Of a stretch of 26,073 nt of DNA, positions 1,727-19,797 are shown in pieces. The notes under the pieces were generated by a model. That model worked only from the letters and a program-made list of their open reading frames with translations. It did no database searches and had not been told where the DNA came from. Numbering within the stretch: position 1 is the stretch's first letter; each line of letters begins with the position of its first letter. The position numbers were made by a program, and so were the translations under genes. Source of the stretch: a virus; the IMG/VR virus record IMGVR_UViG_3300047377_000574, positions 1 through 26,073 of that record; one strand, written 5' to 3'.

Positions 1727-1744
1727 TATCTATTTTTAATTTAC

Positions 1745-3171: not shown

Positions 3172-3185
3172 AATATATGCCCTCC

Positions 3186-4237: not shown

Positions 4238-4248
4238 AATATAGCTCC

Positions 4249-4524: not shown

Positions 4525-4559
4525 GTTTAGCTCCTCAGCTTTTTTCATTTTATAGATAT

Positions 4560-4588
4560 ATTATACACTATTTTTAAGCAAATGTACA
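4560..4588 (-). promoter_or_regulatory. Early-type promoter, copy of a repeated module
   Basis: TGTACA (4588-4583), a 17-base spacer and TATAAT (4565-4560) preceded by AGTG. The block from -10 into the leader (TATAATATATCTATAAAATG) is identical to that of the promoters at 5159 and 19739. The -35 region is preceded by A/T-rich DNA. Confidence 0.8.
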
Positions 4589-4597
4589 CAGTTAATT

Positions 4598-4846
4598 TCA
4601 CTTTAATTGCATTTTTTTTCTGTAATTTTTCACAGCACCGATTACCATCGATGGATATTCACCAAGAAATGTGCCAGCTTCGAGATCACCCTTTGTGATA
4701 AGATGCTTATGCATATGCTCGACACTATCATAGTTTTCAGAAAGCCATTTGCCTAGCTCGTCAAACTCTGCATCTGAGATAAGAGGACTATCCTCTTTAT
4801 AATATGCATAAGCACACATCAGATATTTTGCGACTGGATTTTTCAT
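4598..4846 (-). CDS. Small protein resembling the Ia domain of NAD-dependent DNA ligase
   Basis: The ATG at 4846 (82 residues) overlaps the TAA of the preceding membrane peptide (TAATG); an in-frame GTG at 4852 is the alternative. Residues about 12-35 read YAYYKEDSPLISDAEFDELG. This closely resembles the NMN-binding Ia segment of bacterial LigA, where a pair of Tyr and an ISDAEYD motif contact NAD+. There is no adenylation domain in the frame or nearby. It may be a free-standing NMN/NAD-binding or ligase-interfering domain, or a small helical protein with a convergent motif. The resemblance is seen in the sequence; the role is inference. Confidence 0.7.
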   Translation of the reverse strand: MKNPVAKYLMCAYAYYKEDSPLISDAEFDELGKWLSENYDSVEHMHKHLITKGDLEAGTFLGEYPSMVIGAVKNYRKKMQLK

Positions 4847-4917
4847 TACCACACCAACATAATTGGAAGAGATGCGACTAACAACATACCAAAGGTACCT
4901 ATAAGAAACTTAAACAT
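4846..4917 (-). CDS. Very short membrane peptide, 23 residues
   Basis: A GGAG site lies five bases before the ATG at 4917, inside the end of the upstream gene, and the TAA overlaps the next ATG. The product is one hydrophobic helix (FLIGTFGMLLVASLPIMLVW). It is comparable to the 31-residue membrane peptide at 4142. It could simply be a coupling peptide, but two such peptides in adjacent units is notable. Confidence 0.5.
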   Translation of the reverse strand: MFKFLIGTFGMLLVASLPIMLVW

Positions 4918-5128
4918 AGTTACTCCAAAATTCGTTCCATGTATCAGTCACGATGTACTGATAAGTTGAATGGCCAACTTCTCTCATAAACTCAATCATG
5001 CCAGGAGTTTCAGCTAGCTTTAAATTAAAGTGGCTAAATGTTTCAGATTCAGAAACAATCGCTTCGATGTCAGCAAGATCATAAAAAGCCTCTTGTGCAT
5101 CCATCAACATTGACTTAACTTTACCCAT
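4910..5128 (-). CDS. Small acidic hypothetical protein, 72 residues
   Basis: It is the first gene of its unit, with an AGAGGAG site eight bases before the ATG at 5128 and an early promoter immediately upstream. The product is acidic and helical (DAQEAFYDLADIEAIVSESE) with an aromatic C-terminus. No family is recognised. Placement directly behind an early promoter suggests an early host-interaction protein, without further evidence. Confidence 0.7.
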   Translation of the reverse strand: MGKVKSMLMDAQEAFYDLADIEAIVSESETFSHFNLKLAETPGMIEFMREVGHSTYQYIVTDTWNEFWSNYV

Positions 5129-5158
5129 TCTTATCTCCTCTTTTCATTTTATAGATAT

Positions 5159-5187
5159 ATTATACACTATTCTGGCGTAAATGTACA
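5159..5187 (-). promoter_or_regulatory. Early-type promoter, repeated module
   Basis: TGTACA (5187-5182), 17 bases, TATAAT (5164-5159). From the leader to the -35 this block differs from the one at 19739-19767 by only two bases. The predicted start point is near 5152, giving a leader of about 23 bases to the ATG at 5128. Confidence 0.8.
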
Positions 5188-5220
5188 CTAAAAAATGCAC
5201 TTAATTGAAATTTTTTTTTT

Positions 5221-5228
5221 GATAAATA
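5221..5228 (+). promoter_or_regulatory. Possible late promoter (GATAAATA)
   Basis: One base off the T4 late box TATAAATA, about 34 bases upstream of the only plus-strand gene in this part. It follows a run of ten T. Weak on its own. Confidence 0.35.
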
Positions 5229-5261
5229 ATAGTTACCTACAACAATTAATAGGAGTTCTGC

Positions 5262-5447
5262 ATGAACTTGCAAGAAAAAGTGGGACATAAAGTTTTAGTA
5301 AGAGGAGATGTTGTAAAATCTCCGTCTGGCTCAAACGACTGGGTTGTTATAGATAATAGTAGTGATGGCAAATTAATCTTAGCATGTATTAGCAAATACA
5401 TGTCGAAGGAGCCAAGTGATGTATACGAATGGTATAAGATTAAGTAA
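5262..5447 (+). CDS. Small hypothetical protein, 61 residues
   Basis: A plus-strand gene among minus-strand genes. TAGGAGTT lies five to six bases before the ATG. The product starts with NLQEKVGHKVLVRGDVV and continues with alternating strands (DWVVID, GKLILACIS), suggesting a small beta barrel. No family is recognised. The stop overlaps the stop of the convergent gene at 5440 by eight bases. A near-consensus late box upstream hints at late expression. Confidence 0.6.
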   Translation: MNLQEKVGHKVLVRGDVVKSPSGSNDWVVIDNSSDGKLILACISKYMSKEPSDVYEWYKIK

Positions 5448-5919
5448 TTTTTGCTGCCACTGAATCAAAGTTTTCATCAAATATTGATATCTTGAATAAG
5501 ATTCTGTCTTCAGATCCGTTTTGTACAGAATGCTCATGTTGAGTGTTGATAAGCGCTACATTGTAATAGTGATTAGATATCTTATTTTGTATTCGAAAAG
5601 ATATAGGTGCTGGCTGATTTGAAAGTATTACGTTTATAGAACATTGAGTACCACGGTCTGTGTGAAAAGGTAAGAGCTCATTAGCTAACAATCTGTAAAA
5701 TCTAGCATCAACTCGTCCTTCAATATTGTATTTGTGTTTTATATTCTTAGCCAGATTCTTACAGTATTCGGAAGACATATCCTCATGCCTAATTACTTTC
5801 CAATAAAGTGATGAGCCTCTGTCATCACCATAAAATTTTTCATTAGGTAAAAGATTTTCATATTCTAATAGTAACCTCTCTACATCAAATTCCAACTTTA
5901 AATTTTTAGCAAGCATCAT
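5440..5919 (-). CDS. 2-oxoglutarate/Fe(II) oxygenase, Asp/Asn hydroxylase-like cupin (A)
   Basis: The first usable start is ATG at 5919 (159 residues); the frame upstream of it opens only with TTG. It has the aspartyl/asparaginyl beta-hydroxylase-like arrangement: LLPFHTDRG with the HxD iron ligands (residues 86 and 88), a central beta-rich stretch, and a distal QHEHSV with the third His ligand (about 130). These are followed by R139 in EDRILFKISI, the expected 2-oxoglutarate anchor. It overlaps the preceding radical SAM gene by 14 bases and is the last gene of the 16-gene operon. The substrate is unknown; members of this fold hydroxylate peptides or small molecules. Confidence 0.8.
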   Translation of the reverse strand: MMLAKNLKLEFDVERLLLEYENLLPNEKFYGDDRGSSLYWKVIRHEDMSSEYCKNLAKNIKHKYNIEGRVDARFYRLLANELLPFHTDRGTQCSINVILSNQPAPISFRIQNKISNHYYNVALINTQHEHSVQNGSEDRILFKISIFDENFDSVAAKIT

Positions 5920-7063
5920 AATAACTTTCAAATTCAGGAAAAATATCTATTAAGCATGTCCCTCTTCTCATGTCCAATTCCTTTAATCTTTGTATGCCAG
6001 ATAAAAATAAGTTATGATCACCTTTAGTCTTTAATATTTTTATACACTCGTTTTTATATACGAAATCATTTTTTTCATATTTGTTAAGATATATAGAAGC
6101 TATGTCGGATGGTAGATTACTTGCTTTAAGATTTGAAGGATTAGTTAGAATGGATCCATCAAACGAAACCTCTGTATTGAAGTTATCTCTTATAAAATTG
6201 GATATATCTGTAATATAGCCTATATTTAGAAGTTGCAGCGTTACCCCAAAATTGAGTTTTACGTTATCTATTGATTGCATGTTTCTAATGTTATCAATTT
6301 TTTCTTTCCATATAGTTCCTGTTCTTATATACTCATCCTTTTCTTCTATGCCATCTACAGATGCAGTTAATAAAATCTCTTTGAAACTCTTAAAATAACT
6401 TAGCAGTTCATAATTTATTTCCATACAGTTTGTAGTTAAATTAAGAACAAGATCTTTGCTTAAATTACTGTCGACAATCCACTTTACAAATTTTAGTATG
6501 TCTGAGTTGATAAGAGGTTCTCCTCCTAATATTTCAAGTTTCTTTACAGCTGGAAGAATAATCTTAAATTCTTTAAAGAACTTTTCCTGATCCATATCCT
6601 TCCATGGATTCACAAGAACTTTTCTTTTAGCTCCATATTTAACTTCCTCAGCAGCTATTTTAGAAGATGCGCTAGCAAAACACATTCTACATTTTAGATT
6701 GCAGAGATTACCAAAAAATTTAATTTTCAAACTGTCTAAATCTGTTGGTATAAGATCTGATTTAGACTTGGCGTTGTTTATCACATCATCATCAATATTG
6801 TAGTTTTTCAAACCAGTTCTTCTTGATTTGCCAGATATGCTTTCTTGTTCTATACATTTGCTGCAAGTATCTTCTATAAGATCTGTATGTCCAAATATCA
6901 TATCATGTCTTAATTGCTTCATATATTCAGAGTTAAAAAATTCTAACATAGAAGTGTTTTCAACTGTCATGTTATGTATTCCATTCCACTTAGCAATACA
7001 GCATGCTTGGTACACTCCTCCAGGTGTTGTAGAAAATTGAACAAAAGGTAAAGGACAATACAT
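5906..7063 (-). CDS. Radical SAM protein with N-terminal Cys cluster (twitch/SPASM type)
   Basis: 385 residues. The canonical CxxxCxxC iron-sulfur motif is CNLKCRMC (C121, C125, C128), followed by GGEPL near residue 180, the SAM-binding strand. Before the core lie PFVQFSTTPGGVYQACCIA (C21, C22) and CSKC (C67, C70), four Cys that could ligate an auxiliary cluster placed at the N-terminus, as in twitch-type radical SAM proteins. It should reductively cleave SAM to a 5'-deoxyadenosyl radical. Enzymes with auxiliary clusters often act on peptides or sugars, but the substrate here is unknown. The start overlaps the upstream stop (TAATG). A short isolated Cys precedes the stop at the C-terminus. 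Confidence 0.88.
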   Translation of the reverse strand: MYCPLPFVQFSTTPGGVYQACCIAKWNGIHNMTVENTSMLEFFNSEYMKQLRHDMIFGHTDLIEDTCSKCIEQESISGKSRRTGLKNYNIDDDVINNAKSKSDLIPTDLDSLKIKFFGNLCNLKCRMCFASASSKIAAEEVKYGAKRKVLVNPWKDMDQEKFFKEFKIILPAVKKLEILGGEPLINSDILKFVKWIVDSNLSKDLVLNLTTNCMEINYELLSYFKSFKEILLTASVDGIEEKDEYIRTGTIWKEKIDNIRNMQSIDNVKLNFGVTLQLLNIGYITDISNFIRDNFNTEVSFDGSILTNPSNLKASNLPSDIASIYLNKYEKNDFVYKNECIKILKTKGDHNLFLSGIQRLKELDMRRGTCLIDIFPEFESYYDAC

Positions 7064-7572
7064 TATTTTGAGTCAGTTGTAAATAAAAGATGTAATCTGT
7101 GAGAATTATTTTTAGAAGCGTTTATAGCTGTGTGTTTCTTTCTACCATCAAAACCATATAATGATCCTATCTCTAGCATCTCATATAGATTATCATCTAT
7201 AATAAAATAGCAACCTTTTTCTGTTATTAGCGGAATATGATATCTTAGACCCTGATCACTGTGTAGTCGATATGCTGACCGCGGTTGCATGTTCATAAAT
7301 CTTACACGATATGTTTGACCCACTTTATGGTTGACTATATTTAATACTTCTTCAAGATATGTGTTATGAAAAAGAGGATTTAGCTCCTTATAGTCGTACA
7401 TTGTCTTACCACTATTTTGTAAAGATCCAACCCCATCAAGAACATCTTTAGACGTCACACATAACTGATCTTTACTCGTGTCAAGTGTTTTCCATATGTC
7501 AATTAACTTTTGACTATCAAATTTAAGTTTTGTGTTGTAAACTGAATCCGCATTGGTATCGTTCTTTTGCAT
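7063..7572 (-). CDS. 2-oxoglutarate/Fe(II) oxygenase, Asp/Asn hydroxylase-like cupin (B)
   Basis: 169 residues. YRLHSDQGLRYHIPL gives the HxD ligands (H104, D106). KKHTAIN gives the distal His (H147) and SHRLHLLFT supplies the Arg (R159). The FIIDD...EIGSLYGFDG strand pattern matches oxygenase C (8215), with which it shares clear similarity. The ATG at 7572 lies 50 bases inside the methyltransferase gene, the longest overlap in the operon; no other Met is available before residue 58. A GGAG lies about 12 bases upstream. Substrate unknown. Confidence 0.82.
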   Translation of the reverse strand: MQKNDTNADSVYNTKLKFDSQKLIDIWKTLDTSKDQLCVTSKDVLDGVGSLQNSGKTMYDYKELNPLFHNTYLEEVLNIVNHKVGQTYRVRFMNMQPRSAYRLHSDQGLRYHIPLITEKGCYFIIDDNLYEMLEIGSLYGFDGRKKHTAINASKNNSHRLHLLFTTDSK

Positions 7573-8215
7573 GAGTTAATAATGCTCCTGGAAATTGTTT
7601 TAACAAAAAATTATCATTATATAATGTCACACATTGATTAGTTTTGTGATCTGGAAAGATGTTTGTTGGTTCGTGATTATCGATAAGATAGCAATAATCC
7701 TCTATGAATTCAAATCCATTATAATATTGATAACACGTTCCATACTTTTCAATTCTTTTCTTATACAAAATGTCTCTGAGCCAGATTTGACTACGTGTTG
7801 TACTAACATATGTATGACAGCTATATCCTCCCGGAACAAGATAAGTTTCAAATTTGTTTAGAGCTTCATAAAATTCTTCAAAACTCATATGTGTGTAAAC
7901 GGATTGCGAAAACACCACATCATATTTTTCTAAACTGGGGTACGGTAAATTTTTTTCTCCAGCTGGATTGTAGCAAGTGTTCCATCGATTCCAATGAATC
8001 CATGTCGCATCAGGAAATTCTCTTCTGCCCTCTTCAATAGAATCAAGTCCTACATCTAAACAGGTATAGTTGCTTGGATCGATCAATCCATCAGATGCTC
8101 TTAACAAATTACCGTCATTCCCACCCCAATCTAAAATTTTAGCGTTGGTCCAATCTACAAATGGGAATAGAGATGTTGCTCTTCTGAAAGTGTCTTTATG
8201 TGCTACTATAGCCAT
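7523..8215 (-). CDS. Class I SAM-dependent methyltransferase
   Basis: 230 residues. Motif I is KILDWGGNDGNLL (about 26-38), the glycine-rich SAM loop. It is followed by a CLDVGLDS strand ending in the acidic residue that binds the ribose, and by YDVVFSQSVYTHM (motif IV/V region). This is a Methyltransf-type small-molecule or sugar methyltransferase fold. The C-terminal part is Tyr- and Asn-rich and diverges from known families. Its start overlaps the previous stop (TAATG, with GGAG just upstream). It is flanked on both sides by 2-oxoglutarate oxygenases, suggesting modification of a common intermediate. Confidence 0.85.
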   Translation of the reverse strand: MAIVAHKDTFRRATSLFPFVDWTNAKILDWGGNDGNLLRASDGLIDPSNYTCLDVGLDSIEEGRREFPDATWIHWNRWNTCYNPAGEKNLPYPSLEKYDVVFSQSVYTHMSFEEFYEALNKFETYLVPGGYSCHTYVSTTRSQIWLRDILYKKRIEKYGTCYQYYNGFEFIEDYCYLIDNHEPTNIFPDHKTNQCVTLYNDNFLLKQFPGALLTHAKERYQCGFSLQHKT

Positions 8216-8754
8216 TATCTACTCCATAATGTTATACCGAGATTAACTCTTTCTCTAGTTTTGTGAAGATTAACAGGTGAGTGTAACACAGAAGTGTCTA
8301 AGAGATACATCTTTCCAAGTTCTAATTTATTTAGTTTATTATCCATTATCAAATACGAATGTTCGTTATCAATTATAGGAATCAGCAATCTGTTTTTTTG
8401 CTGATCTACATGAAAACTACGGGCTGATGGTCCACTCAAATCATCAACTGATTTAAGTGTTATGAATCTAGCCCTGCATGCAAAAAAATCTGAAAATATA
8501 GTATTAACTTGGTGTATAACTTCTTCAATATATGTTCCTGTAAAATGTGATAGAAGATGTGTGCAATCCTTATCCGATACTTTTCCAAAATTTTTAGTAC
8601 CAAAATTAAGAGTGTTCTGATGTCCAGCACTACATTGTATAGGTGTTAAAAAACAGCCAGAAGTGTTTTCAACTGTTTTGTATAGTGATAACAACTTATC
8701 AACATTAAACTTTACGCCTGTGTCAGTAATGTAAGGTGATTTAATGCCATCCAT
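8215..8754 (-). CDS. 2-oxoglutarate/Fe(II) oxygenase, Asp/Asn hydroxylase-like cupin (C)
   Basis: 179 residues. RSFHVDQQKN carries the HxD ligands (H115, D117). YLIMDNKLNKLELGKMYLLD is the strand pair that precedes the distal His (H158, in LHSPVN), and R169 follows. The same layout occurs in oxygenase B, suggesting an old duplication with the methyltransferase gene inserted between. The start overlaps the sulfotransferase stop by 14 bases. Substrate unknown. Confidence 0.82.
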   Translation of the reverse strand: MDGIKSPYITDTGVKFNVDKLLSLYKTVENTSGCFLTPIQCSAGHQNTLNFGTKNFGKVSDKDCTHLLSHFTGTYIEEVIHQVNTIFSDFFACRARFITLKSVDDLSGPSARSFHVDQQKNRLLIPIIDNEHSYLIMDNKLNKLELGKMYLLDTSVLHSPVNLHKTRERVNLGITLWSR

Positions 8755-9301
8755 TTTTATAATCTTCTTTATAAAATTCTTCAGCCATTCTTATTTGAGA
8801 ATGGTGTAACCTTATCTTATTTTTTGTTTTTCTAATGTGCTGCACTCGAATATTTATATTTGTATAATCGGATATAAGTTCAGCTACTTTATTCATTTCA
8901 GTGACGTCAAATATATGATCATATGTGTCAGCTGAACCGGCAAAATATGTTTGAGTGTTAAAATGTTTGTCTTTATAGTTTCCTTGTAATATTTCTTCAA
9001 TCGACAGATTTTCCTTTTTTCTAAATAATACAATGTCACTATATGCAGATATAAATCTATCAATAGGATTTCTTTTCACAGCAAACTTAACAGCTTTAGA
9101 TCTTACTGGGTTATAATACTGAAACAACTTTGTTTTAAAATTAATGATATTGTAATCACTATCATAGTAATCGTTTAAATCAGGCACGTCTTTTATTGTC
9201 TGCAGCATCATATGTCTAACCGACGAACATCCATTTTTAGGTATAATGTAGTAATCTAGATCGTTACCTATCCAAAACGATTTTGTTTTATCGAAGTTCA
9301 T
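8741..9301 (-). CDS. Sulfotransferase (Sulfotransfer_2-like)
   Basis: The frame is open to 9373, but the ATG at 9301 (186 residues) reduces the overlap with the upstream gene to 14 bases and has GGA seven bases before it. The 5'-phosphosulfate loop is IIPKNGCSS and the 3'-phosphate site is AVKRNPIDRFISAYSD, the two signature PAPS-binding motifs of Golgi-type/bacterial sulfotransferases. The enzyme should move sulfate from PAPS to a hydroxyl or amine acceptor, often a carbohydrate. It is compact but has both motifs. The upstream gene is a second sulfotransferase-like protein. Confidence 0.82.
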   Translation of the reverse strand: MNFDKTKSFWIGNDLDYYIIPKNGCSSVRHMMLQTIKDVPDLNDYYDSDYNIINFKTKLFQYYNPVRSKAVKFAVKRNPIDRFISAYSDIVLFRKKENLSIEEILQGNYKDKHFNTQTYFAGSADTYDHIFDVTEMNKVAELISDYTNINIRVQHIRKTKNKIRLHHSQIRMAEEFYKEDYKNGWH

Positions 9302-10016
9302 ACACAGATCCATCTTCTTTATACCATGTGTGTACATGTTTTTGAATTGTATTAACCAAGGCTTTATAGTCATTAGATGATAATAATCTCTTCTTTTCCT
9401 CTAATGGAGTTTGTTTAAATCTATAAGCTTCTGTATGAGAATCACATTTTATATATTCTAAAAAACAGCTGGATTGTTCTATTACTTGATTGTATGAAAA
9501 AAGCTGCACCGAATTCATAAGCTGCGTCATTACATTTACGTTATGAGATAATGAATACATTAACGAATCTATAATATCTAAGTCAATTGATTTATTATTA
9601 AAGAATTCGCTAAGAGCTTTGTTTCTTTTTTCTGCTCCACTTGAATAAACTGATGACATTTTCACGTCTGTTAAAGGATTGAACAAGTCGTAATAAACAT
9701 TTATTAATAGACTTAGATAATGATCCACATAATCTGCTCTAGGAGTTATAGCAAAAGAATGGCTTTCCCTTAGCATTTGGTCTACAGGTTTGAAGATATA
9801 AGCTGCTTGTCTTACGTTCACGATGCTAACAAATTTTGTGAACGTTGTTATACTATGATCACTATATTGTTTTACATATTCTGCGTTTTCCTTAGGCCTT
9901 ACAGGTTTAAAGGCTTCAGACTGAATATAACAATTGTGATTTTGTTTTATAAGACTTACTGTAAATGTAGATGCAGAACGAGGCAAACTAACACATAACA
10001 TATTCATTGGCTGCAT
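9288..10016 (-). CDS. P-loop sulfotransferase-like protein
   Basis: 242 residues. The N-terminus reads MLCVSLPRSASTFTVSLI, which matches the phosphosulfate-binding loop of sulfotransferases (PRSGST type) immediately after the first strand. A later RADYVDHYLSLLINVYYD segment has the position and shape of the 3'-phosphate site (R...S...Y). Possible starts are ATG at 10016, 10007 (ATGA overlap with the upstream stop) and 10001. It could be a sulfotransferase with an unusual acceptor, or a related nucleotide-binding protein. The adjacent definite sulfotransferase supports the former. Confidence 0.72.
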   Translation of the reverse strand: MQPMNMLCVSLPRSASTFTVSLIKQNHNCYIQSEAFKPVRPKENAEYVKQYSDHSITTFTKFVSIVNVRQAAYIFKPVDQMLRESHSFAITPRADYVDHYLSLLINVYYDLFNPLTDVKMSSVYSSGAEKRNKALSEFFNNKSIDLDIIDSLMYSLSHNVNVMTQLMNSVQLFSYNQVIEQSSCFLEYIKCDSHTEAYRFKQTPLEEKKRLLSSNDYKALVNTIQKHVHTWYKEDGSVYELR

Positions 10017-10642
10017 TTTTTAATTACTTCTAATCCTTTTTTTACAAAATTGTTATGACGTATTCCTGCAAAAGTGTAAATATGATCATAATAGAAATCA
10101 TCAAATTTTGGCTTACCGAATTTGTTATACAGATCATAATAATCAATCTCTACATTATTTTTTGTAAGTCTTTGCCAAACACGTAAACAAAAAAATAATC
10201 CTAATGCTTGTCTATCGACATTCATTGCAAACGAATCCATGTCAATAAATGTAATATTATTTTCAAAGATAAAATAATTCTTTAACGCACAATCGTAGTG
10301 AATAGGGTATCCTTTGTCGCATGGCTCGATAAAATCATAGTAGATCTGAAGAATATGTTTCTCTTGAGCAAACTCAATATTTTTATTTTGATTCTTATCA
10401 GAACCTACAAACACCTTGGGATTTAATAAAGGCATTTCATAATCAATAATATTATTTGCTACTCGCTCATACTTAAAATCAATAATATCACTTTTGAATT
10501 TAGATCTATCTAGTTTAGCATAACAATCTTCTAGATAGTTTGCAAACTTTGCGTCCGTAAATTCAACCCTTTTCTTTACAGTATAGCCACAAAACTCTAC
10601 TGTTCGTTTAGAAAAAAAGTCGCAAAACCAGTACTTATTCAT
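10004..10642 (-). CDS. Kinase-like phosphotransferase (APH/LPS-kinase fold)
   Basis: The start is ATG at 10642 (212 residues); the frame upstream begins only at TTG. The catalytic signature is IHYDCALKNYFIFENN (H115, D117, N122) followed by FIDMDS (D134). This is the HxDxxxxN...D arrangement of aminoglycoside phosphotransferases and lipopolysaccharide core kinases. The N-lobe is weakly conserved and no glycine loop is obvious, as is common in sugar kinases of this type. It probably phosphorylates a small molecule or sugar. The ATG overlaps the stop of the TauD-like gene. Confidence 0.7.
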   Translation of the reverse strand: MNKYWFCDFFSKRTVEFCGYTVKKRVEFTDAKFANYLEDCYAKLDRSKFKSDIIDFKYERVANNIIDYEMPLLNPKVFVGSDKNQNKNIEFAQEKHILQIYYDFIEPCDKGYPIHYDCALKNYFIFENNITFIDMDSFAMNVDRQALGLFFCLRVWQRLTKNNVEIDYYDLYNKFGKPKFDDFYYDHIYTFAGIRHNNFVKKGLEVIKKCSQ

Positions 10643-11258
10643 AAGCAAATCTCAAAAGAGTTTTAGTGCCAGTAGATGCATCTCTTCGATGAGTATATCT
10701 AATGTTATTAAAAATGATTAAGTCATTTGGTTTATAGTCATGTTTATAGATATATTTTTCTTGGTAGCAATGTTCTTGTATTCTTTGTTCAAGATTTAAA
10801 TTAATCATAGTATACGCTTCACTATAGTAAAAACAGTTTTGCCATATTAGTGGCCTTTCACATCTACCATATTTTTTTGCAAATCTCTTTTCTTTTTCAT
10901 TTTTAAATTTATATACAAAGCCATTATCGATATATTTACTAGCTGAATGAAGCGCTGTTACGTTTTGGCATTCTCTAATTAAAGATTGTGGTGCTTCTTG
11001 ATATGCTTTTTGCATATCACATATGTATAAGCTACCTGCGTTATTATCTGCCTCTACACAAAACAAACCAACAGTATGATGTACATCTATTGAATATCCT
11101 TTATCATGGTGCCATGGCATTGCTGGAGTCACCTCCAAGTCTGTTTCACTTGGAGTTCTACAAATTCTTACAATATGAGATCCTGGATCTTGTTGTACTA
11201 AATTACCGTAATCATAAATTTGATTTTGTTTGGCGTTTCTTTTAATTATCATGGACAT
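10635..11258 (-). CDS. TauD/TfdA-like 2-oxoglutarate/Fe(II) dioxygenase
   Basis: 207 residues. PWHHDKGYSIDVHHTVGLFC carries the HxD iron motif (H50, D52), as in the TauD family where W/H-H-x-D precedes a hydrophobic strand. AGSLYICDM follows in the family position (the GG.t.f.d strand). PNDLIIFNNIRYTHRRD gives the distal His (H190), and R203 is the 2-oxoglutarate partner. It is shorter than TauD (about 280 residues) because it lacks the N-terminal extension. This is a different subfamily from the six small cupin oxygenases here. Start is at 11258 or 11252, overlapping the radical SAM stop. Confidence 0.82.
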   Translation of the reverse strand: MSMIIKRNAKQNQIYDYGNLVQQDPGSHIVRICRTPSETDLEVTPAMPWHHDKGYSIDVHHTVGLFCVEADNNAGSLYICDMQKAYQEAPQSLIRECQNVTALHSASKYIDNGFVYKFKNEKEKRFAKKYGRCERPLIWQNCFYYSEAYTMINLNLEQRIQEHCYQEKYIYKHDYKPNDLIIFNNIRYTHRRDASTGTKTLLRFAYE

Positions 11259-13068
11259 GAGATCTCAACATAGCATTCATAGAATACAAAGGAGCACAAT
11301 TCCTTTCATCGTATTCTTTAATATCTCTGTAATCTACTTCATCATATATCTCATTTAATTCTTCAATAGCTTGATCTAAATTTAAATATATCTCAGCAGC
11401 ATGAGGTTTAATGTTATGAGGATATTGAGATGCAGCAATATTATCAGTGAAAATTCTCATTCTATTGTCAGTCCTTTTTCCAAATGAATCGTTAAACACA
11501 TAAGATAAGTTATCTGATACTCTCTTAAACAATGGTGCTTTACCTTGTTCCATAACATTTTTGTATTTATCATACTGTTTACGATATGACATATTTGATG
11601 TATACATCCACTCTCTAGCTAACCTAGAATTATACATAATATCATGCCACCACGCCATCTGATGCATTTCCTCTAAATCCTTCATTGAGAAACTTTTGCA
11701 TGATCTTACAAGATGTATTTGTGAATATTCAAATTCATCGAAGTTGTCTCCTATAAACTTGGTTTTTACTTCTTTCAAACCTTCAAGTGCTAATTTACCT
11801 GAAAAGTGTGGTTCATACATTTTTCTTGTCACTAGATAAAGGTCATCTGGTACATGAAGATGTACAAGTTCTATTTCGTGTTCTTCCATATATTGTTTAC
11901 TGTAAATTTGAGTATTATGCAAGGTGTGGAGAGGATACATTTTTGAATGCCTCATCTTATACTCAAATTCTTTTTCTAGTGTATAAAACCAGTTGTCTAC
12001 TTTTTCTCCTGGTAATCCAGTAATGAGCTCTGAAGATAATATAGACCCAGTTGAAGCGGCCATCTTTATAAGTTCTTCTGGCTTAATGTTGTGTCTACTA
12101 ACTGCATTTAAGGTTTCGGGATGGTGAGACTGAATCCCTACTCTAAAACTCTTATACACATTATTTAATTTATTTGCGTTTGCATCATCATCAGAAAGTA
12201 ATTTCACAACTTCAAAGGCATGTTTCTTAGGATTCTTAGCTAAACCGGCAAACGTAAATATCATGTTTGGATGCTTGTTTCTTTTTTCGTCAATAACTTT
12301 TTTCACTAGTTCTACATCTTCAGGTAACATGCCGGTGTTTGCATCTCCTAAAACAATCCATTTCATTTTTTTATCAGCAATGTATTCAATTGTTTTGAAT
12401 ACATCTTGTTGATCAAACTTCTGTACTTTGGCTCTGGTCATAGCTCCCCAGTCACAAAATGCACACTGGTAAGGACATCCTCTATTTGATTCGATAACAC
12501 CAGCTAAATTGCCCTTTTCTTTTTCAATGATTTTTTCAAAGATGCCATCTGTGTAGGGAGTAGGCATTAAATCAGGAACAGCATAAGCCTTTCTACTAGA
12601 TGAGTAATTGTGCCAACCTAGTCCGATTGTAAATTCGTGTTCATGCAATTGTTTGCTGTCAAGGTTTAATAGAAAATCTTCAAAAGTTTTTTCTGATGGT
12701 CCAGGAAAAGCTACGTCAACCACCTCTTCTCGGTCCATCATATATTCTTGAGAGAAGTCCATAGTTTCAGGTACATTAGGTCCTCCATATATTACAAGTC
12801 CAGAAGGGTTTTGTTCTTTAAAAATCTTTGAGATTTTATCATTGAACAACTGGTTCCATATGTAGTTTGTAAGACCTAAGATATCAACATTTGTAAAATC
12901 ATAAGTTTTGGCTTGATCAAAATGATATAATGGTTCTAAGAAGTTGAACTTTTTGTTTATTATATCATTTTTTTGGCAGTGTGATATAAGGCATCCAACA
13001 GGATAAGGAACAAATTTTTGATTCCTTACCGATATTGTTCCAAGAAGAATGTTACGTTTCTTCGTCAA
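11242..13068 (-). CDS. B12-binding-type radical SAM protein
   Basis: I start at TTG 13068 (608 residues). The frame runs to 13182, but those codons only overlap the preceding gene, and KKRNILLGTISVRNQ looks like the usual first strand of B12-type radical SAM proteins. The N-terminal part is Rossmann-like with GLVIYGGPNVPE. No DxHxxG cobalamin-His motif is visible. The core has CPYQCAFC (C198, C202, C205) and a TIM-barrel-like stretch with VLGDANTG and SSELITGLPGE. The family carries out C-methylation, ring contraction and other radical steps, and the C-terminal 200 residues are unassigned. Substrate unknown. Confidence 0.88.
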   Translation of the reverse strand: MTKKRNILLGTISVRNQKFVPYPVGCLISHCQKNDIINKKFNFLEPLYHFDQAKTYDFTNVDILGLTNYIWNQLFNDKISKIFKEQNPSGLVIYGGPNVPETMDFSQEYMMDREEVVDVAFPGPSEKTFEDFLLNLDSKQLHEHEFTIGLGWHNYSSSRKAYAVPDLMPTPYTDGIFEKIIEKEKGNLAGVIESNRGCPYQCAFCDWGAMTRAKVQKFDQQDVFKTIEYIADKKMKWIVLGDANTGMLPEDVELVKKVIDEKRNKHPNMIFTFAGLAKNPKKHAFEVVKLLSDDDANANKLNNVYKSFRVGIQSHHPETLNAVSRHNIKPEELIKMAASTGSILSSELITGLPGEKVDNWFYTLEKEFEYKMRHSKMYPLHTLHNTQIYSKQYMEEHEIELVHLHVPDDLYLVTRKMYEPHFSGKLALEGLKEVKTKFIGDNFDEFEYSQIHLVRSCKSFSMKDLEEMHQMAWWHDIMYNSRLAREWMYTSNMSYRKQYDKYKNVMEQGKAPLFKRVSDNLSYVFNDSFGKRTDNRMRIFTDNIAASQYPHNIKPHAAEIYLNLDQAIEELNEIYDEVDYRDIKEYDERNCAPLYSMNAMLRSHVHDN

Positions 13069-13552
13069 GTTTAAGATTCCCTGTCCACAGTATTTGTTGC
13101 ACACCACCGTTTCCAGTTGCAACTCTATAGTTGTGACCTGTAAAATGCCATTGGTGCCGTGATTGTATATTGATAGAATCAATTAAAGAAGCCATTGCTT
13201 TACGTGATCTTTCCATAGAAATAAAGTATCCATCGAATCCATATTTTTGTATAAATTGGATTTGATGATCAATCATTGTAACAGCAAATGGTCTTATACC
13301 TTTACCAAACCCCTTCAAGTTGCTATATTTTAGATTACAGTAGTAACGATTTTGTACTCTACACATATTGTTAAACATATCTCGTTCATATGCTGATGAT
13401 ACAGCTATAGGAGTTTCATTATGATATGCAACAGCCACACAATAAACATCATTGGGAATATTTTGAATAGAGTAGTTTATAAATCCTCGTTCTTCCGCTA
13501 TCCTGTAAAGGTATTTTGCATCGTCAGTATAATGTTTTGATATTAATATCAT
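13052..13552 (-). CDS. GNAT-like acyltransferase (tentative)
   Basis: 166 residues. The order of secondary structure and the YCVAVAYHNETPIAVSSAYE beta hairpin resemble the GNAT fold. NLKGFGKGIRPFAVTMIDH resembles the acetyl-CoA loop (Q/RxxGxG/A) with the following helix, and GFDGYFISME is the next strand. Acyl donor and acceptor are unknown. The gene overlaps the preceding oxygenase by 29 bases and the following radical SAM gene by 17. The fold call is moderate; a phage-specific protein with a similar pattern is possible. Confidence 0.55.
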   Translation of the reverse strand: MILISKHYTDDAKYLYRIAEERGFINYSIQNIPNDVYCVAVAYHNETPIAVSSAYERDMFNNMCRVQNRYYCNLKYSNLKGFGKGIRPFAVTMIDHQIQFIQKYGFDGYFISMERSRKAMASLIDSINIQSRHQWHFTGHNYRVATGNGGVQQILWTGNLKLDEET

Positions 13553-14051
13553 TTAAGTGGTCACATAATTTGTCGTATGTAAAATCGTTTATTTGGATCC
13601 TAACAATAGCTCTAGGTGGCTTTCCAGTATTATCAAACTTGTGTTTTTTTCTGGTAGCATCAACAATTGCAATTTTATATTTATATTCTTTATCTTCAAA
13701 TACAGTGGGAAAAGGATCCGTTAAAAGAATATTAATTCTTGTTGTATTAGGAAATGGATCTACGTGCCAGTCCAGATAATCTTCCGAACTATAAGACATT
13801 ATTCTTACTTTATAGTCTTTTATTCCCAATGCAGCACACAGTCTTGAACATTCGTCATAAACATAACCATCGTATAAATCCAAAATCCAACCTTTGTGAT
13901 CAGCGTCTTCTTCATTAGCTAATTCTCTGCCATCACCTTTTTTGAGTAGACGCTTACTTTGATTTTTTCTTCTATTGAATTCTGATAACATACCAGATAT
14001 ATCTAAATCAAAATTAAATTCGTTAACTGGAGATTCTTTCATAAAGCTCAT
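13524..14051 (-). CDS. 2-oxoglutarate/Fe(II) oxygenase, Asp/Asn hydroxylase-like cupin (D)
   Basis: 175 residues. YLDWHVDPFPNTTRINILL contains the HxD ligands (H96, D98) and the R-I-N strand typical of the aspartyl/asparaginyl hydroxylase family. KYKIAIVDATRKKHKFDN gives the distal His (H137), and an Arg (R147 or R151) follows. It is the third of three such genes in a row. The start is ATG 14051 or 14042. The 5' end overlaps the upstream gene by 29 bases. Substrate unknown. Confidence 0.82.
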   Translation of the reverse strand: MSFMKESPVNEFNFDLDISGMLSEFNRRKNQSKRLLKKGDGRELANEEDADHKGWILDLYDGYVYDECSRLCAALGIKDYKVRIMSYSSEDYLDWHVDPFPNTTRINILLTDPFPTVFEDKEYKYKIAIVDATRKKHKFDNTGKPPRAIVRIQINDFTYDKLCDHLNDINIKTLY

Positions 14052-14676
14052 TATATTCTACATCTCTACTAGTTATTTTTAATGTAATTCTGTCTTGGGT
14101 ATCATTATTTACCACAGCATGATACTCTTGTATATTTAATAGCGCTGTTTTATATGTATATGAATTTGAAATAAAGTCAACTGTCGCTTGGCTACCAAAA
14201 TTGTAGTTTATTGCTGCCTTTGTATTGATACTATCTTTATGCCATGACAAATATTCATTTTGTTTCAAAGTTATTAATCTTAAATTGTAATCATGGATGT
14301 CATAAAATAAACAAAGTTTTTTACATTCTTCTCTAATAAGTTTGGCAGCATCAGAAGTTATCTTTTTTAGATCTGTATTGCTATATGGATATGAAACTTT
14401 AGGCCTAGTGTCACTTAACAAAAATGACGTTTTATGATTAGACACTCCTTCTTTTACATACCAAAACTCTTCTTCGTTACCATGAACATATCGATAGTAT
14501 CCATCTTCAGTTATTTGTGAAGGATGAATATTAACATCGGTGTGATTCATATTGTGAGGATGTTTATAGCCAGATTGTAATATATCTTTATAGATTTCAC
14601 TGTACGCGTGATGTATGTCTTTACTCCACGGCCATTGAAACTCCAATAGATTTGGCAATTTGTTTAAGTTCTTCAT
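14023..14676 (-). CDS. 2-oxoglutarate/Fe(II) oxygenase, Asp/Asn hydroxylase-like cupin (E)
   Basis: 217 residues. YLSWHKDSINTKAAINY holds the HxD ligands (H146, D148). YKTALLNIQEYHAVVNNDT holds the distal His (H186), and R196 in QDRITLKI follows. The first 120 residues are longer than in its neighbours, rich in His and Tyr, and probably a substrate-binding cap. Its C-terminal half is clearly related to oxygenase F (YKTA...I...HxVVN...R.TLKI in both), so these are tandem paralogues that have diverged widely. The start overlaps F by 56 bases. Confidence 0.83.
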   Translation of the reverse strand: MKNLNKLPNLLEFQWPWSKDIHHAYSEIYKDILQSGYKHPHNMNHTDVNIHPSQITEDGYYRYVHGNEEEFWYVKEGVSNHKTSFLLSDTRPKVSYPYSNTDLKKITSDAAKLIREECKKLCLFYDIHDYNLRLITLKQNEYLSWHKDSINTKAAINYNFGSQATVDFISNSYTYKTALLNIQEYHAVVNNDTQDRITLKITSRDVEYNELYERISS

Positions 14677-15175
14677 AACTTTTATCCATAGGAATAATTT
14701 TCAGTGTATATCGTACTTCATCGCTAGTATTAACTACTTTATGGAACACATTAGATATATCAATTATGGCTGTCTTATATTCAACAACTTCTGTTTGATT
14801 AAAAATAATGGGAGCAGATCCTCCGAATAAATGATTGATAGCGCACGGATTCAAACTTTTATTATCTAGGTGACTGAAAATTCTATCTCCTGGTGAATAT
14901 CGAAGAACTTTAACTCTCCATTCTTTTACACTAAACAAGTCACATACTTGTTGAGCCACATCATAACAATAACCATGAGTTAGATCTAAAGTCTTTTCAA
15001 AGTATGAGACCTCTTCATCAAGAAGTGATATACTTCCTGTACTCATATGTACTAAACCTGATGAGTCAGCTTCATAATCACATGCGTGTACAGAAATCCT
15101 CTTGAATGTAAGTTGCTGACTTTCTTCTAAAAGTTTAGTGTCATCAAATTCCAAATCAATGTGAGTGATGGTCAT
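14621..15175 (-). CDS. 2-oxoglutarate/Fe(II) oxygenase, Asp/Asn hydroxylase-like cupin (F)
   Basis: The ATG at 15175 (184 residues) has GAAGGT seven bases upstream and is better than the 15199 start that lies deeper in the desaturase gene. The HxD ligands are in FSHLDNKS (H102, D104), the distal His in NVFHKVVN (H145), and the Arg in EVRYTLKI (R155). It is closest to oxygenase E among its neighbours. A possible internal late promoter lies 28 bases upstream. Confidence 0.83.
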   Translation of the reverse strand: MTITHIDLEFDDTKLLEESQQLTFKRISVHACDYEADSSGLVHMSTGSISLLDEEVSYFEKTLDLTHGYCYDVAQQVCDLFSVKEWRVKVLRYSPGDRIFSHLDNKSLNPCAINHLFGGSAPIIFNQTEVVEYKTAIIDISNVFHKVVNTSDEVRYTLKIIPMDKSYEELKQIAKSIGVSMAVE

Positions 15176-15680
15176 AATGATTACCTTCAAATGGAGCAAA
15201 TATATTTATATACCATTTATTCTGAGGGCCATTAGTAGAATGACCAAAATAATTCAAAACACCTATACCTATGTAACCATATAATATTGTCAATGGACAA
15301 CACACAATTATTGGCCAAATAAGATATTTTCCATACTTTTGAAAAAAACGGATTCTGGGGTTTGAAACAATATCCCTTACAATAAATAAAGGTACTTTAG
15401 TATCTGACCAATCTGACACTAAAACTTTCCAACCTTTGAATTTGGGACAGTGTGGATCTTTTTCGGAATCACTATACTTATGATGAAGTCTATGGATACC
15501 TATCCATCCTAGTGGTTTATATACTCCTAAAAACAAACTGCATACAAGTGATATCCACTCAAATGCAGTGTTTCTAGGACCTTGCTGGTGGGCCCAATAT
15601 CTATGTAATCCATACGTTGCTCCAACAATTGCTAATGGTAGATACACTATGTACCATAGCACTAGCGTTTTAAGAAGCAT
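15156..15680 (-). CDS. Compact membrane fatty acid desaturase
   Basis: 174 residues with all three histidine boxes of the acyl-CoA/acyl-lipid delta-9 desaturase family: HRYWAH (about 26-31), HRLHH (about 63-67) and NHYDHH at the very C-terminus. Two to four hydrophobic segments surround them. Usual members have 280 residues or more, with about 60-100 residues after the third box; here the protein ends two or three residues beyond it. All diiron ligands known for the family seem present, so it may be active as a minimal enzyme. It would put a double bond into membrane acyl chains or a lipid-like substrate. It overlaps the Rieske-like gene by 11 bases. Confidence 0.85.
   Translation of the reverse strand: MLLKTLVLWYIVYLPLAIVGATYGLHRYWAHQQGPRNTAFEWISLVCSLFLGVYKPLGWIGIHRLHHKYSDSEKDPHCPKFKGWKVLVSDWSDTKVPLFIVRDIVSNPRIRFFQKYGKYLIWPIIVCCPLTILYGYIGIGVLNYFGHSTNGPQNKWYINIFAPFEGNHYDHHSH
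15203..15210 (-). promoter_or_regulatory. Possible internal late promoter
   Basis: An exact TATAAATA inside the 3' end of the desaturase gene, 28 bases before the ATG of oxygenase F, a typical late-promoter distance. A few such octamers are expected by chance in DNA this AT-rich, so support is positional only. Confidence 0.35.
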
Positions 15681-16755
15681 GCTTCAACCTGGGTCTCATC
15701 GGATCTACGTCCAACATATCACCCCATGCAGCATAGTAATGTCTCATACCAACCTCATCATGGATAGTTCCATTCTCGTGGCGACCATGTAAAATACGTC
15801 TTGCCTCTGTACCTTCACGCATTGTTGTACCTTGACCAGCAACACCAATCAGATCTTCATGCAGGTTACGTCCAAACGGACCCCAGATAGAATTATGATG
15901 GTTGATACGAGTAAGTCTTTCTTCCTTAGTGTCTTTCTTCAAACCGTAGCCACGGAACTCAATCAATACTTTGTTTGGACCAAGTGGTGTGACAGAATCA
16001 CTGCGGTATGCACTGCCTCTCAGGTTGAAGTTGAAACCTGGGAACAGGTCAACCATGTACCACTGGTTGGGTGGCAGATTAGGGAAAGATAATTCGCCTC
16101 TATCTTCAAAACCTTCATATTCTGTATAGTTTACAGTAAAACTACTTACATTAACGTGACCATTGTCAAATGGGATGTTCTTACGCGCAAAGTAAGCGTC
16201 GTTGAATCCTGACACACGATTAAAATAGTGCATAAAGTCATGATAGAATTCGCTATTAGTATCATGCCACAATTTATAGTTAGTGTCTATAACTGCTTTA
16301 TGATAATGAAAGACCTCCATCTCTTCAGTGTCAATAGCATCTGCAATACAGTCAAATGCTCCTGCTGTCCATTCTTCAACACTTTGTGTAGGATTTTTAT
16401 TTAAGGTAGTCCATACCATACCTCCGTGTTTTACTTCTGTATATAGCGGAGTATAGTCATCCATTAAAAATTCTACTCGTGACATTGTTCCTGAAGGTGT
16501 ATTAAACTTACCTGTATTTAGATAAGATTTAATTGTATCACCGTTATTAATTGCAATAATGTTGACACCTGCAATTTGTGTTGTTCTAAAATTGCCTGGC
16601 TCGGGCATCTCAGATTTATGACACATTGGAACCCAAACCTTACTAAAGATTTGTTCCATCTCTTGGTCATGGATCTGCTGGTTGTTATAGCATTCACTAG
16701 AGATATATTCTATGCTCGGTGTCTCTAACCACTTCTTATGATTTCTTGGCGGCAT
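15670..16755 (-). CDS. Rieske-oxygenase-like protein lacking the [2Fe-2S] ligands
   Basis: 361 residues following the alpha subunit of Rieske non-heme iron oxygenases. The N-terminal IFSKVWVPMCHKSEMPEPGN matches the entry to the Rieske domain. The cluster ligands (CxH...CxxH) are missing: the strand after DTIKSYLN continues GKFNTPSG instead of CPHRG. Only three Cys occur in the whole protein. The catalytic domain is kept: NYKLWHDTNSEFYHDFMH with two His, and HEDLIGVAGQG with the third ligand Asp. The His spacing is HxxxH instead of the more usual HxxxxH. GGAG precedes the ATG and a late box lies 25 bases upstream. It is first in the 16-gene operon. It may work with another electron donor, or bind without oxidising. 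Confidence 0.82.
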   Translation of the reverse strand: MPPRNHKKWLETPSIEYISSECYNNQQIHDQEMEQIFSKVWVPMCHKSEMPEPGNFRTTQIAGVNIIAINNGDTIKSYLNTGKFNTPSGTMSRVEFLMDDYTPLYTEVKHGGMVWTTLNKNPTQSVEEWTAGAFDCIADAIDTEEMEVFHYHKAVIDTNYKLWHDTNSEFYHDFMHYFNRVSGFNDAYFARKNIPFDNGHVNVSSFTVNYTEYEGFEDRGELSFPNLPPNQWYMVDLFPGFNFNLRGSAYRSDSVTPLGPNKVLIEFRGYGLKKDTKEERLTRINHHNSIWGPFGRNLHEDLIGVAGQGTTMREGTEARRILHGRHENGTIHDEVGMRHYYAAWGDMLDVDPMRPRLKHAS

Positions 16756-16779
16756 ATAGCTCTCCTTTAATTATATCTC

Positions 16780-16787
16780 TATTTATA
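16780..16787 (-). promoter_or_regulatory. Late promoter of the oxygenase operon
   Basis: An exact TATAAATA on the minus strand, 25 bases before the ATG of the first operon gene and between a terminator-like hairpin and a GGAG site. It is one of the three octamers in the window lying in true intergenic DNA, which favours function. Confidence 0.6.
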
Positions 16788-16796
16788 TAACAGCTT

Positions 16797-16833
16797 ATAA
16801 AAAGTTACCACTTTTCTGTTTCTAGGTAAGTGG
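16797..16833 (-). terminator. Weak terminator-like hairpin after the tmRNA coding piece
   Basis: CCACTT (16833-16828) pairs with AAGTGG (16813-16808) across a 14-base loop and is followed by TAACTTTTTAT. It may terminate the tmRNA precursor, or be the last helix of the tmRNA itself. Read-through into the oxygenase operon is possible. Confidence 0.4.
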
Positions 16834-16971
16834 CCAACCCACAGATTACGCAGCTAAGCGCATCTCAGGAGCAAAGTTATCGTTTGCATTTAGTCATGTC
16901 TTGCGTTAACCCAGCTTGCGCGGGATAGCTCCACGTTCCTATCCAATATCCGTCGATCCTATTTCGCCCCC
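16808..16971 (-). ncRNA. ssrA: tmRNA coding piece with resume codon and tag frame
   Basis: The mature 5' end is G at 16971. A GGATAG/CTATCC helix follows, then the resume codon GCA (16887-16885) and the TAA at 16848-16846. After the tag frame, GTGG/CCAC and CCACTT/AAGTGG can pair, probably as part of the pseudoknot region. The 3' boundary is approximate. Confidence 0.85.
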
Positions 16972-16983
16972 ATCATAAGAACA

Positions 16984-17217
16984 CTATTCGAACCAAAGGA
17001 GAAAATCCATGCTTCCTGTAATCTTGTATAAGACAAACATCATCATACAAAACCACAATAGCCAAAATAACCAAAAGCCTAAAAACCTGTACACTTTTTC
17101 CATAGGCAAATACTTTTCAAGTAATGTAGTAATGTCCCACACATATCTAAATTGTATGATCCAACAAAACCATCTTATGTATTTGTTAGGTGTATTTTCT
17201 TTAGTTATCTTAACCAT
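16984..17217 (-). CDS. Membrane protein encoded inside the tmRNA intervening segment
   Basis: The ATG at 17217 is preceded by AGGAG at three bases, 18 bases after the CCA of the acceptor piece. The TAG ends 12 bases before G1 of the coding piece, so the 77-residue frame fills the spacer that must be cut out to mature the tmRNA. The product has a basic N-terminus, an aromatic RWFCWIIQFRYVW segment and a strong transmembrane helix (FLGFWLFWLLWFCMMMFVLY), ending in an acidic tail. No family is recognised. A plus-strand frame overlaps it but lacks a ribosome binding site. Translation would have to occur before precursor processing. Function unknown; a holin-like or membrane-depolarising role is one possibility only. 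Confidence 0.65.
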   Translation of the reverse strand: MVKITKENTPNKYIRWFCWIIQFRYVWDITTLLEKYLPMEKVYRFLGFWLFWLLWFCMMMFVLYKITGSMDFLLWFE

Positions 17218-17235
17218 GATCTCCTAGTGTGCTTA

Positions 17236-17301
17236 TGGTGGAGGCGGCGGGTACTGCCCCCGCGTCCGGCCTATCTTTCAGTCTGTTTCATCACTATAAT
17301 A
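17236..17301 (-). ncRNA. ssrA: tmRNA acceptor piece ending in CCA
   Basis: CCA is encoded, ending at 17236. The upstream limit is the predicted start point near 17301, 12 bases from the first base of TATAAT. The T loop lacks the canonical TTCGA. Confidence 0.85.
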
Positions 17302-17307
17302 TTATAT

Positions 17308-17336
17308 ATTATATCACACTCTTCTGAGAATGTAAA
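17308..17336 (-). promoter_or_regulatory. ssrA: Early-type promoter of the tmRNA
   Basis: TTTACA (17336-17331), 17 bases, TATAAT (17313-17308), preceded by GTGTGA, which is close to a textbook T4 early promoter. The predicted start falls only about 65 bases before the CCA, so it would begin right at the acceptor piece. Confidence 0.8.
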
Positions 17337-17338
17337 CA

Positions 17339-17346
17339 TATAAATA
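17339..17346 (+). promoter_or_regulatory. Late promoter for the plus-strand genes
   Basis: An exact TATAAATA about 64 bases before the first plus-strand gene, back-to-back with the early promoter of the tmRNA (two bases between its -35 and this box). Intergenic position and orientation support it. Confidence 0.55.
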
Positions 17347-17410
17347 AAGTAAAGAGCGAATTATATTTTCAATTGATATAGACTATGGCAATACTTATTT
17401 AGAGGTTACC

Positions 17411-17884: not shown

Positions 17885-17891
17885 GTGTTAC

Positions 17892-19708: not shown

Positions 19709-19738
19709 TTTGATTTCCTCTTTTCATTTTATAGATAT

Positions 19739-19767: not shown

Positions 19768-19797
19768 CAAAAAAGTGCATTTACATATTTAATGAAA

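Follow-up and report, generated by a model that had tools for sequence, protein, structure and literature searches.

Hypervariable islands with glycosyltransferase, radical SAM and AspH genes are known from pelagimyophages, and surface alteration against co-infection has been proposed as their role (PMC7029224). The host recognition cluster described there, in which AspH was noted as core, is one of the closest described parallels to the locus examined here, a run of 16 genes at 5440-16755 (minus strand) of the virus record IMGVR_UViG_3300047377_000574. The window analysed is this whole record, which is 26,073 bases long and itself a genome fragment. Both islands belong to T4-like marine phages, are large and non-syntenic, carry radical SAM cassettes and are rich in putative envelope-modifying genes. 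The pelagimyophage cluster, however, diverges gradually and is characterized by glycosyltransferases, whereas in the window whole cassettes have been swapped precisely in a slot on the replication side. The window cassette does not lie at the location of the host recognition cluster (between VrlC and gp14, by the tail fibres), although related modules elsewhere do. As described below, genes 2-16 are an exchangeable cassette in a fixed slot, and the core of this cassette, a desaturase, a GNAT-like protein and several AspH-type oxygenases, recurs as a module in many viral contigs.

A cultivated phage carries a version of the module. In SAR11 phage Mosig (EXVC030M, MT647606), genes 00071-00094 include a run of AspH, fatty-acid desaturase, TauD, methylase and N-acetyltransferase genes by the tail fibres and also radical SAM genes, all shared with the window cassette, but at another site and in another order. 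The Mosig host recognition region reads AspH, desaturase, aminotransferase, flavin mononucleotide (FMN) reductase, peroxiredoxin, 2-oxoglutarate (2OG) oxygenase, TauD, methylase, GNAT, AspH and tail fibres, and a divergent block holds radical SAM, nitroreductase, carbamoyltransferase and glycosyltransferase-like genes. The aminotransferase, FMN reductase, peroxiredoxin, nitroreductases and carbamoyltransferase are extras relative to the window; among the genes compared, Mosig has no homologue of gene 1, and its GNAT match is weak (E=2e-5). The Mosig genome announcement is silent on the module genes (PMC7892664). A reading of the window from its letters alone, hereafter the original prediction, had recognized no described phage system in the run. 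This stands for the module as a system, for which no description was found in the open literature (subscription papers and preprints lay outside the search), but not for its parts, as Mosig holds the module annotated gene by gene and such islands have been described (PMC7029224). We regard the region as a phage auxiliary-gene island, with a fair chance that it represents a new kind of viral pathway.

The core genes of the phage are T4-like and include UvsX, 75% identical to that of Kyanoviridae phage C48C1, a DnaB helicase, ThyX and an endolysin. The 16 genes lie exactly at the coordinates first proposed, and their successive longest open reading frames (ORFs) all overlap, by 1-131 nt each; those of genes 3, 7, 9 and 16, which have TTG starts, are probably too long. 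Ten of the 16 assignments are directly backed by Pfam, NCBIfam or PHROGs, some of them weakly. All genes appear intact with their catalytic motifs except gene 8, whose alignment leaves the first third of the TauD profile uncovered. The features of the region are as follows.

Gene 1 (o1), 15670..16755, minus strand: Ring_hydroxyl_A, Rieske-type alpha-subunit homologue; anchor of the slot, outside the module core.
Gene 2, 15156..15680, minus strand: short acyl-CoA-desaturase-like membrane protein with three His boxes; module core.
Gene 3, 14621..15199, minus strand: AspH-type 2OG-Fe(II) oxygenase.
Gene 4, 14023..14676, minus strand: AspH-type 2OG-Fe(II) oxygenase.
Gene 5, 13524..14051, minus strand: AspH-type 2OG-Fe(II) oxygenase.
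Gene 6, 13052..13552, minus strand: GNAT-fold protein whose family has no Pfam entry; module core.
Gene 7, 11242..13182, minus strand: B12-dependent radical SAM C-methylase, TokK/CysS/KedN5-like; Radical_SAM.
Gene 8, 10635..11258, minus strand: TauD-like oxygenase, N-terminally short.
Gene 9, 10004..10648, minus strand: phosphotransferase-like kinase; motif HxDxxxxN...DxD by eye, no family match.
Gene 10, 9288..10016, minus strand: sulfotransferase-like; P-loop-like PRSAST by eye, no family match.
Gene 11, 8741..9373, minus strand: sulfotransferase; Sulfotransfer_2, E=9e-7.
Gene 12, 8215..8754, minus strand: AspH-type 2OG-Fe(II) oxygenase; weak Asp_Arg_Hydrox match.
Gene 13, 7523..8215, minus strand: S-adenosylmethionine (SAM) methyltransferase; relatives present in other modules.
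Gene 14, 7063..7572, minus strand: AspH-type oxygenase; Asp_Arg_Hydrox.
Gene 15, 5906..7063, minus strand: twitch-domain radical SAM protein; Radical_SAM, NF033640.
Gene 16, 5440..5931, minus strand: AspH-type 2OG-Fe(II) oxygenase; final cassette gene.
Convergent 61-aa ORF, 5262..5447, plus strand: its 3' end bounds the exchangeable cassette on the right (5443).
Transfer-messenger RNA (tmRNA) gene, two-piece (permuted), alpha-type, 16803..17340, minus strand: Rfam RF01849/RF04321, directly upstream of gene 1.
T4-type late promoter box TATAAATA, 16780..16787, minus strand: 25 nt upstream of gene 1.

To assess recurrence of the module, 2.9 million viral contigs were scanned with a gene 2 desaturase alignment, which detected 238 relatives. 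The best 80 were fetched, of which 74 gave usable loci, and all ORFs of the fetched loci were searched with profiles of the cassette families; 40 loci with gene 1 and no desaturase served as controls. AspH-type genes lay within 8 kb of the desaturase in 72 of the 74 loci, at 2.9 per 10 kb, compared to 2 of the 40 controls, and the gene 6 family did so in 68 loci and in none of the controls. The desaturase loci are not fully independent, as some contigs are near-duplicates, and desaturase identity reaches down to 38%. Within the same distance were TauD (29/74), twitch radical SAM (18), methyltransferase (14) and B12 radical SAM genes (11). The broad AspH and GNAT alignments were too diverse for pattern scans and a narrower alignment was used; this reciprocal scan with the GNAT-like family found the order desaturase-AspH-GNAT-AspH in all 24 loci with upstream sequence, about half of them on contigs new relative to the desaturase scan. 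The conserved order holds in one clade. Thus the core genes do not occur independently of a shared neighbourhood; desaturase, GNAT-like protein and AspH recur together, with 2-9 diverged AspH paralogues per phage module.

At least two genomic sites are occupied by the module. One is the replication-side slot seen in the window (also, e.g., in loci L136, L140, L141, L149 and L184), which applies to about 30 loci including the window, with no tail genes alongside; at the other, the module adjoins Mtd_N-type or other tail genes (approximately 37 of 94 loci examined). In L131/L133 it adjoins a terminase gene.

The module is largely phage-specific and is nearly lacking from cellular genomes. Of the queries against 50,697 phage records, the GNAT-like one had no match, the desaturase (tblastn) matched only SAR11 phage Mosig, and the Mosig AspH matched only Mosig itself. 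A scan of 84,980 cellular species genomes, which demands an exact pattern match and may miss distant cellular relatives, returned only two close relatives, both of them phage contigs misfiled in metagenome-assembled genomes (MAGs). These two, L209 and L210, are filed under Paceibacter and Opitutia MAGs and are phage DNA; L210 has the flank genes of the window. L211 and L212 gave more distant matches (36-37%).

Genes 2-16 are an exchangeable cassette in a fixed slot that extends from the tmRNA and gene 1 to the convergent ORF at 5443. Loci L036 and L037, which come from two samples and share 99.97% identity across 11.5 kb, are 100% identical to the window at 2-5443 and 94-96% identical at 15692-22311, with a different cassette of seven genes in between. 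In a sliding comparison with L036, identity is about 100% from 17.9 kb to approximately 16.76 kb and then about 45-90% inside gene 1, beyond which the genes are wholly different until position 5443, the 3' end of the convergent 61-aa ORF. L040 has the same two borders and a third cassette of 12 genes, the slot of L034 is nearly empty (about 600 bases only), and L094 retains the tmRNA and flanks with neither gene 1 nor a cassette. The arrangement of the window itself was also seen in L002 and L003. G+C content is mostly 0.29-0.35 in the cassette compared to 0.33-0.39 in the flanks, where its neighbours are the tmRNA, endolysin, ThyX and DnaB genes. Homologous recombination in the conserved flanks would be the simplest mechanism for the swaps, though not a proven one. 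The 16 genes had been taken for one operon and a fixed unit, which the swap in L036/L037 and the separable gene 1 rule out; in addition, genes 9, 10 and 11 are accessory, because they have no homologue among the approximately 4,100 ORFs compared.

Several further observations concern the slot. In near-identical phages, diverged gene 1 alleles travel with different cassettes. In L036 (2506-2588 and 3671-3753) and also in L037, 83 bp consisting of the tmRNA 3' end, the late box and the ribosome-binding site are duplicated right after gene 1, which gives the swapped-in cassette its own promoter copy. L004/L005 are 100% identical to the window over half the cassette (12560-16978) in a backbone only about 80% identical, which reflects either a recent swap between lineages of phages or a chimeric assembly. 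L004, a single and possibly chimeric assembly, was not used as proof of transfer. Post-gene-1 cassettes in L042 (4394-14316) and L026 (10261-19412) hold, by eye, tripartite tricarboxylate transporter-like (TctA/TctC), radical SAM and AMP-ligase-like genes. In L104 (2746-9364), genes that by eye resemble glycosyltransferases and methyltransferases form a run that precedes a gene homologous to the 84-aa flank gene of the window; this is another cassette type near the same flank. Other cassettes add glycosyltransferase-, AMP-ligase-, PP-loop ATPase-, short-chain dehydrogenase/reductase- and transporter-like genes as well as sulfotransferase genes, mostly judged by eye. An 83-nt repeat (TGTACA...TATAATATAT) occurs three times in the window, at 4522-4604, 5121-5203 and 19701-19783, upstream of small genes and ThyX; these copies are probably early promoters.

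We next consider what the single enzymes resemble. The gene 2 family profile matches solved acyl-CoA desaturases (PDB 4zyo/4ymk, E=5e-14). The protein has eight histidines, its three His boxes are all invariant, and it is homologous to the membrane protein SCD1, although much shorter. By these sequence features gene 2 is a predicted DesA-type, acyl-CoA/fatty-acid desaturase. Lipid desaturases of cyanophages (vFAD) were reportedly described by Roitman and colleagues in 2018 as single auxiliary genes. Gene 2 resembles these as a putative phage-encoded fatty-acid desaturase, but its tblastn search matched no cyanophage record. Phage desaturases are a known class (PMC11480375, which cites Roitman et al. 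2018) and have also been described for Lake Baikal viruses (PMC7678222).

The gene 6 family matched no Pfam family. An AlphaFold model of its homologue from L187 had a core predicted local distance difference test (pLDDT) score above 90, and the top Foldseek matches of this model were all GNATs (E about 2e-5), including acyl-homoserine-lactone synthases. Judged from this homologue, the gene 6 family adopts a predicted GNAT fold, with acyl transfer as its putative activity.

Genes 3, 4, 5, 12, 14 and 16, described originally as small HxD...H oxygenases, belong to one AspH-like superfamily by iterated profile search; the HxD...H triad and a distal Arg are invariant in 11 aligned proteins that include all six from the window. 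The family profile is closest to Cpz10-type beta-hydroxylase (PDB 7v4f, E=7e-21). Cpz10 is a beta-hydroxylase of caprazamycin biosynthesis (PMC9814697), where it acts as a single enzyme in a bacterial antibiotic cluster, unlike the multiplied AspH paralogues of the phage modules.

The best matches of gene 7 are TokK (E=6e-66) and CysS; against the KedN5 model NF033712, gene 7 scores 147.5 bits, below the NCBI cut-off of 700. TokK and CysS are methylating enzymes of antibiotic biosynthesis. Gene 7 falls within their wider family and, judged from this similarity, probably works like a TokK-type C-methylase, but it is surrounded by no beta-lactam or enediyne pathway. Its close relatives in viral contigs are copies of this same cassette only, and none was found in isolate phages. 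Gene 15 scores 284 bits against the twitch-domain radical SAM model NF033640, above the NCBI cut-off of 170, and the translations of both genes contain CxxxCxxC by eye. Blocks of diverged radical SAM genes related to gene 15 were also seen in the T4-like Vibrio phages K566 (L088, 13962-20698) and KVP40 (L089, 1654-11095); in K566, a PagP-annotated gene lies a few kb from the block. The radical SAM, methyltransferase, TauD-like, desaturase and GNAT-like assignments of the original prediction are all borne out by these matches, as is its picture of a tailoring set with no scaffold synthase. Two others were retained in part: of the two proposed sulfotransferases, gene 11 has a family match and gene 10 a motif only, and the kinase assignment of gene 9 has its motif and no family match.

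Gene 1 had been called Rieske-like, which applies to its catalytic domain (Ring_hydroxyl_A, E=2e-7). H172, H176 and D301 are invariant, which would keep the 2-His-1-carboxylate mononuclear iron site, with D301 assigned as third ligand from the PDB alignment. Among 79 homologues from marine phages there is hardly any variation in the catalytic domain, while the N-terminal, former Rieske domain is variable; the [2Fe-2S] ligands CxH...CxxH were absent from this domain in all 79, and the alignment to solved enzymes ends where the first cluster ligand should follow. The AlphaFold model is poor (pLDDT 49), although its structural matches are nevertheless Rieske oxygenases. Because the ligands of the electron-transfer cluster are lost, gene 1 is predicted from its sequence to be incapable of acting as an ordinary Rieske oxygenase. 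Gp61 of SAR116 phage HMO-2011, 71% identical to gene 1, likewise lacks the Rieske ligands. Unlike gene 1 of the window, Gp61 stands alone among structural genes with no tailoring cassette; it is annotated as a methanesulfonate monooxygenase, and the MsmA label is doubtful for Gp61 and gene 1 alike.

Gene 1 is an independent, very widespread phage gene, separable from the cassette. It is carried by at least 599 viral contigs, and in most of 80 fetched gene 1 loci it is solitary, with no tailoring genes after it. It adjoins the two-piece alpha-type tmRNA in most loci tested and tRNAs instead in three. Membership of gene 1 in the pathway was rejected on account of its solitary occurrence and tmRNA/tRNA neighbours. 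The adjacency of this permuted, alphaproteobacterial-type tmRNA to gene 1 is kept in many marine phages, and in the window a 77-aa hydrophobic ORF (16984-17217) sits between the two tmRNA pieces. The late box noted earlier in front of gene 1 holds up in comparison, as TATAAATA occurs at -32 to -34 of gene 1 in 17 of the 79 homologues compared to a background of 0.9%. With TATAAATA upstream of its first gene, the run is a candidate T4-type late transcription unit.

The reading we prefer, with a probability of roughly 0.4, is that a product of lipid or aminoacyl origin undergoes late tailoring and is most likely placed at the host envelope. The TATAAATA box would drive late transcription of the cassette. 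Together, the desaturase and the GNAT-fold protein would handle an acyl group drawn from host lipid metabolism, which would be joined (by the GNAT-like protein, to an amine) onto an amino-acid-, peptide- or sugar-like partner. The AspH and TauD enzymes, B12-radical-SAM methylase, methyltransferase and sulfotransferases would then hydroxylate, methylate and sulfate the acyl product. Set on or in the host envelope during infection, the product may alter what is encountered by competing phages or by the progeny of the phage itself. An acyl substrate is suggested by the constant desaturase; a product at the host surface is favoured by the late box, by the position beside tail genes in many relatives and by swapping in the manner of O-antigen loci. 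We propose that whole cassettes are swapped between otherwise identical phages because the product is an envelope trait, like those of bacterial O-antigen loci. The Mosig module, which adjoins tail genes and glycosyltransferase-like genes in the host recognition cluster region of PMC7029224, provides a further link to the envelope.

Several points weigh against this reading. The window cassette lies in the replication half and not beside tail genes, and other cassettes found in this slot, such as that of L036, have no desaturase/GNAT core at all. No specific acyl donor stands out from the GNAT-fold matches. The closest solved relatives of the AspH profile act on amino acids or aminoacyl-nucleosides, and the profile shows next to no similarity to LpxO, a lipid hydroxylase (a single homologue, E=0.05). 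The number of TATAAATA boxes in the window is not above chance (6 found, 4.8 expected). Finally, the substrates of the enzymes are putative throughout. A specific ornithine-lipid or lipid-A route is attractive by analogy with OlsB/OlsC/LpxO but stays conjectural, as AspH has no real LpxO similarity and the GNAT-like protein no Pfam family.

The nearest rival is somewhat unlikely by our estimate: that the product is a diffusible or cell-retained molecule resembling a natural product, such as an acylated amino acid or short peptide serving as signal, siderophore-like compound or antimicrobial. The kinship of gene 7 with the antibiotic-pathway methylases TokK and CysS and also with KedN5, that of the AspH family with Cpz10 (PMC9814697), the acyl-homoserine-lactone synthases among the GNAT-fold matches, and AMP-ligase-, PP-loop ATPase- and small aminotransferase-like genes at other loci (mostly by eye) all point this way. 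However, the modules share no constant ligase, synthase or precursor gene, a secreted product has little obvious use for a lytic phage, and whole-cassette exchange in clonal backgrounds fits a surface trait better. A lipid-anchored natural product would satisfy both this reading and that of an envelope product. A ribosomally synthesized and post-translationally modified peptide (RiPP) cluster was rejected, as the run, in which genes overlap with no gaps, contains no small precursor-type ORF; one may lie elsewhere in the phage, the record being a fragment.

It seems improbable that the targets are virion proteins, mainly tail fibres, whose post-translational modification would change adhesion specificity. 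The tail-side loci, including that of Mosig, the late box upstream of gene 1 and the peptide modifiers known within the AspH and twitch radical SAM families agree with this reading, but the most constant member of the module is an acyl-CoA-type membrane desaturase, unsuited to protein modification, and in the replication-side slot there are no tail genes at hand. We consider it quite improbable that the region is a mixed hypervariable island of unrelated auxiliary genes, gathered only by an insertion-tolerant slot and sharing no pathway. Genes 9, 10 and 11 with no homologues in other modules, the entirely different cassettes possible in the same slot and the separable gene 1 would fit such an island; against it stand the co-occurrence of desaturase, GNAT-like and AspH genes at two genomic sites in phages as diverged as their desaturases, the order conserved in one clade, and the controls in similar phages, which are without these genes. 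2OG oxygenases and radical SAM enzymes do occur in phage DNA hypermodification, and gene 1 adjoins tmRNA/tRNA genes, but modification of DNA bases, nucleotides or tRNA is very improbable, as family searches recognized no modified-pyrimidine or other modified-nucleotide synthase, DNA kinase or base transferase among the window proteins, ThyX looks ordinary, a membrane desaturase has no role there and a late promoter would come too late for DNA already replicated.

For the very common viral gene 1/'msmA', the annotation is corrected here: it does not encode an ordinary Rieske oxygenase. More broadly, and slightly more tentatively than the envelope reading, marine phages may own a virus-specific class of small-molecule pathway, built on a desaturase, a GNAT-fold acyltransferase and multiplied AspH enzymes and completed by radical SAM, methyl- and sulfo-group decoration. 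The product of this pathway would be diversified by cassette swaps between clonal phages, comparable to O-antigen and natural-product diversification. Should the core genes indeed form a pathway, 5-15 kb of genome in hundreds of uncultured ocean viruses is given over to oxidative chemistry that is nearly lacking in cells. The product would then be one never seen before, and the module would both explain in molecular terms why phages infecting SAR11-like hosts have hypervariable islands and supply new iron and radical enzymes. As Mosig and Pelagibacter HTCC1062 are a cultivated phage-host pair that carries a version of the module, the question is testable now.

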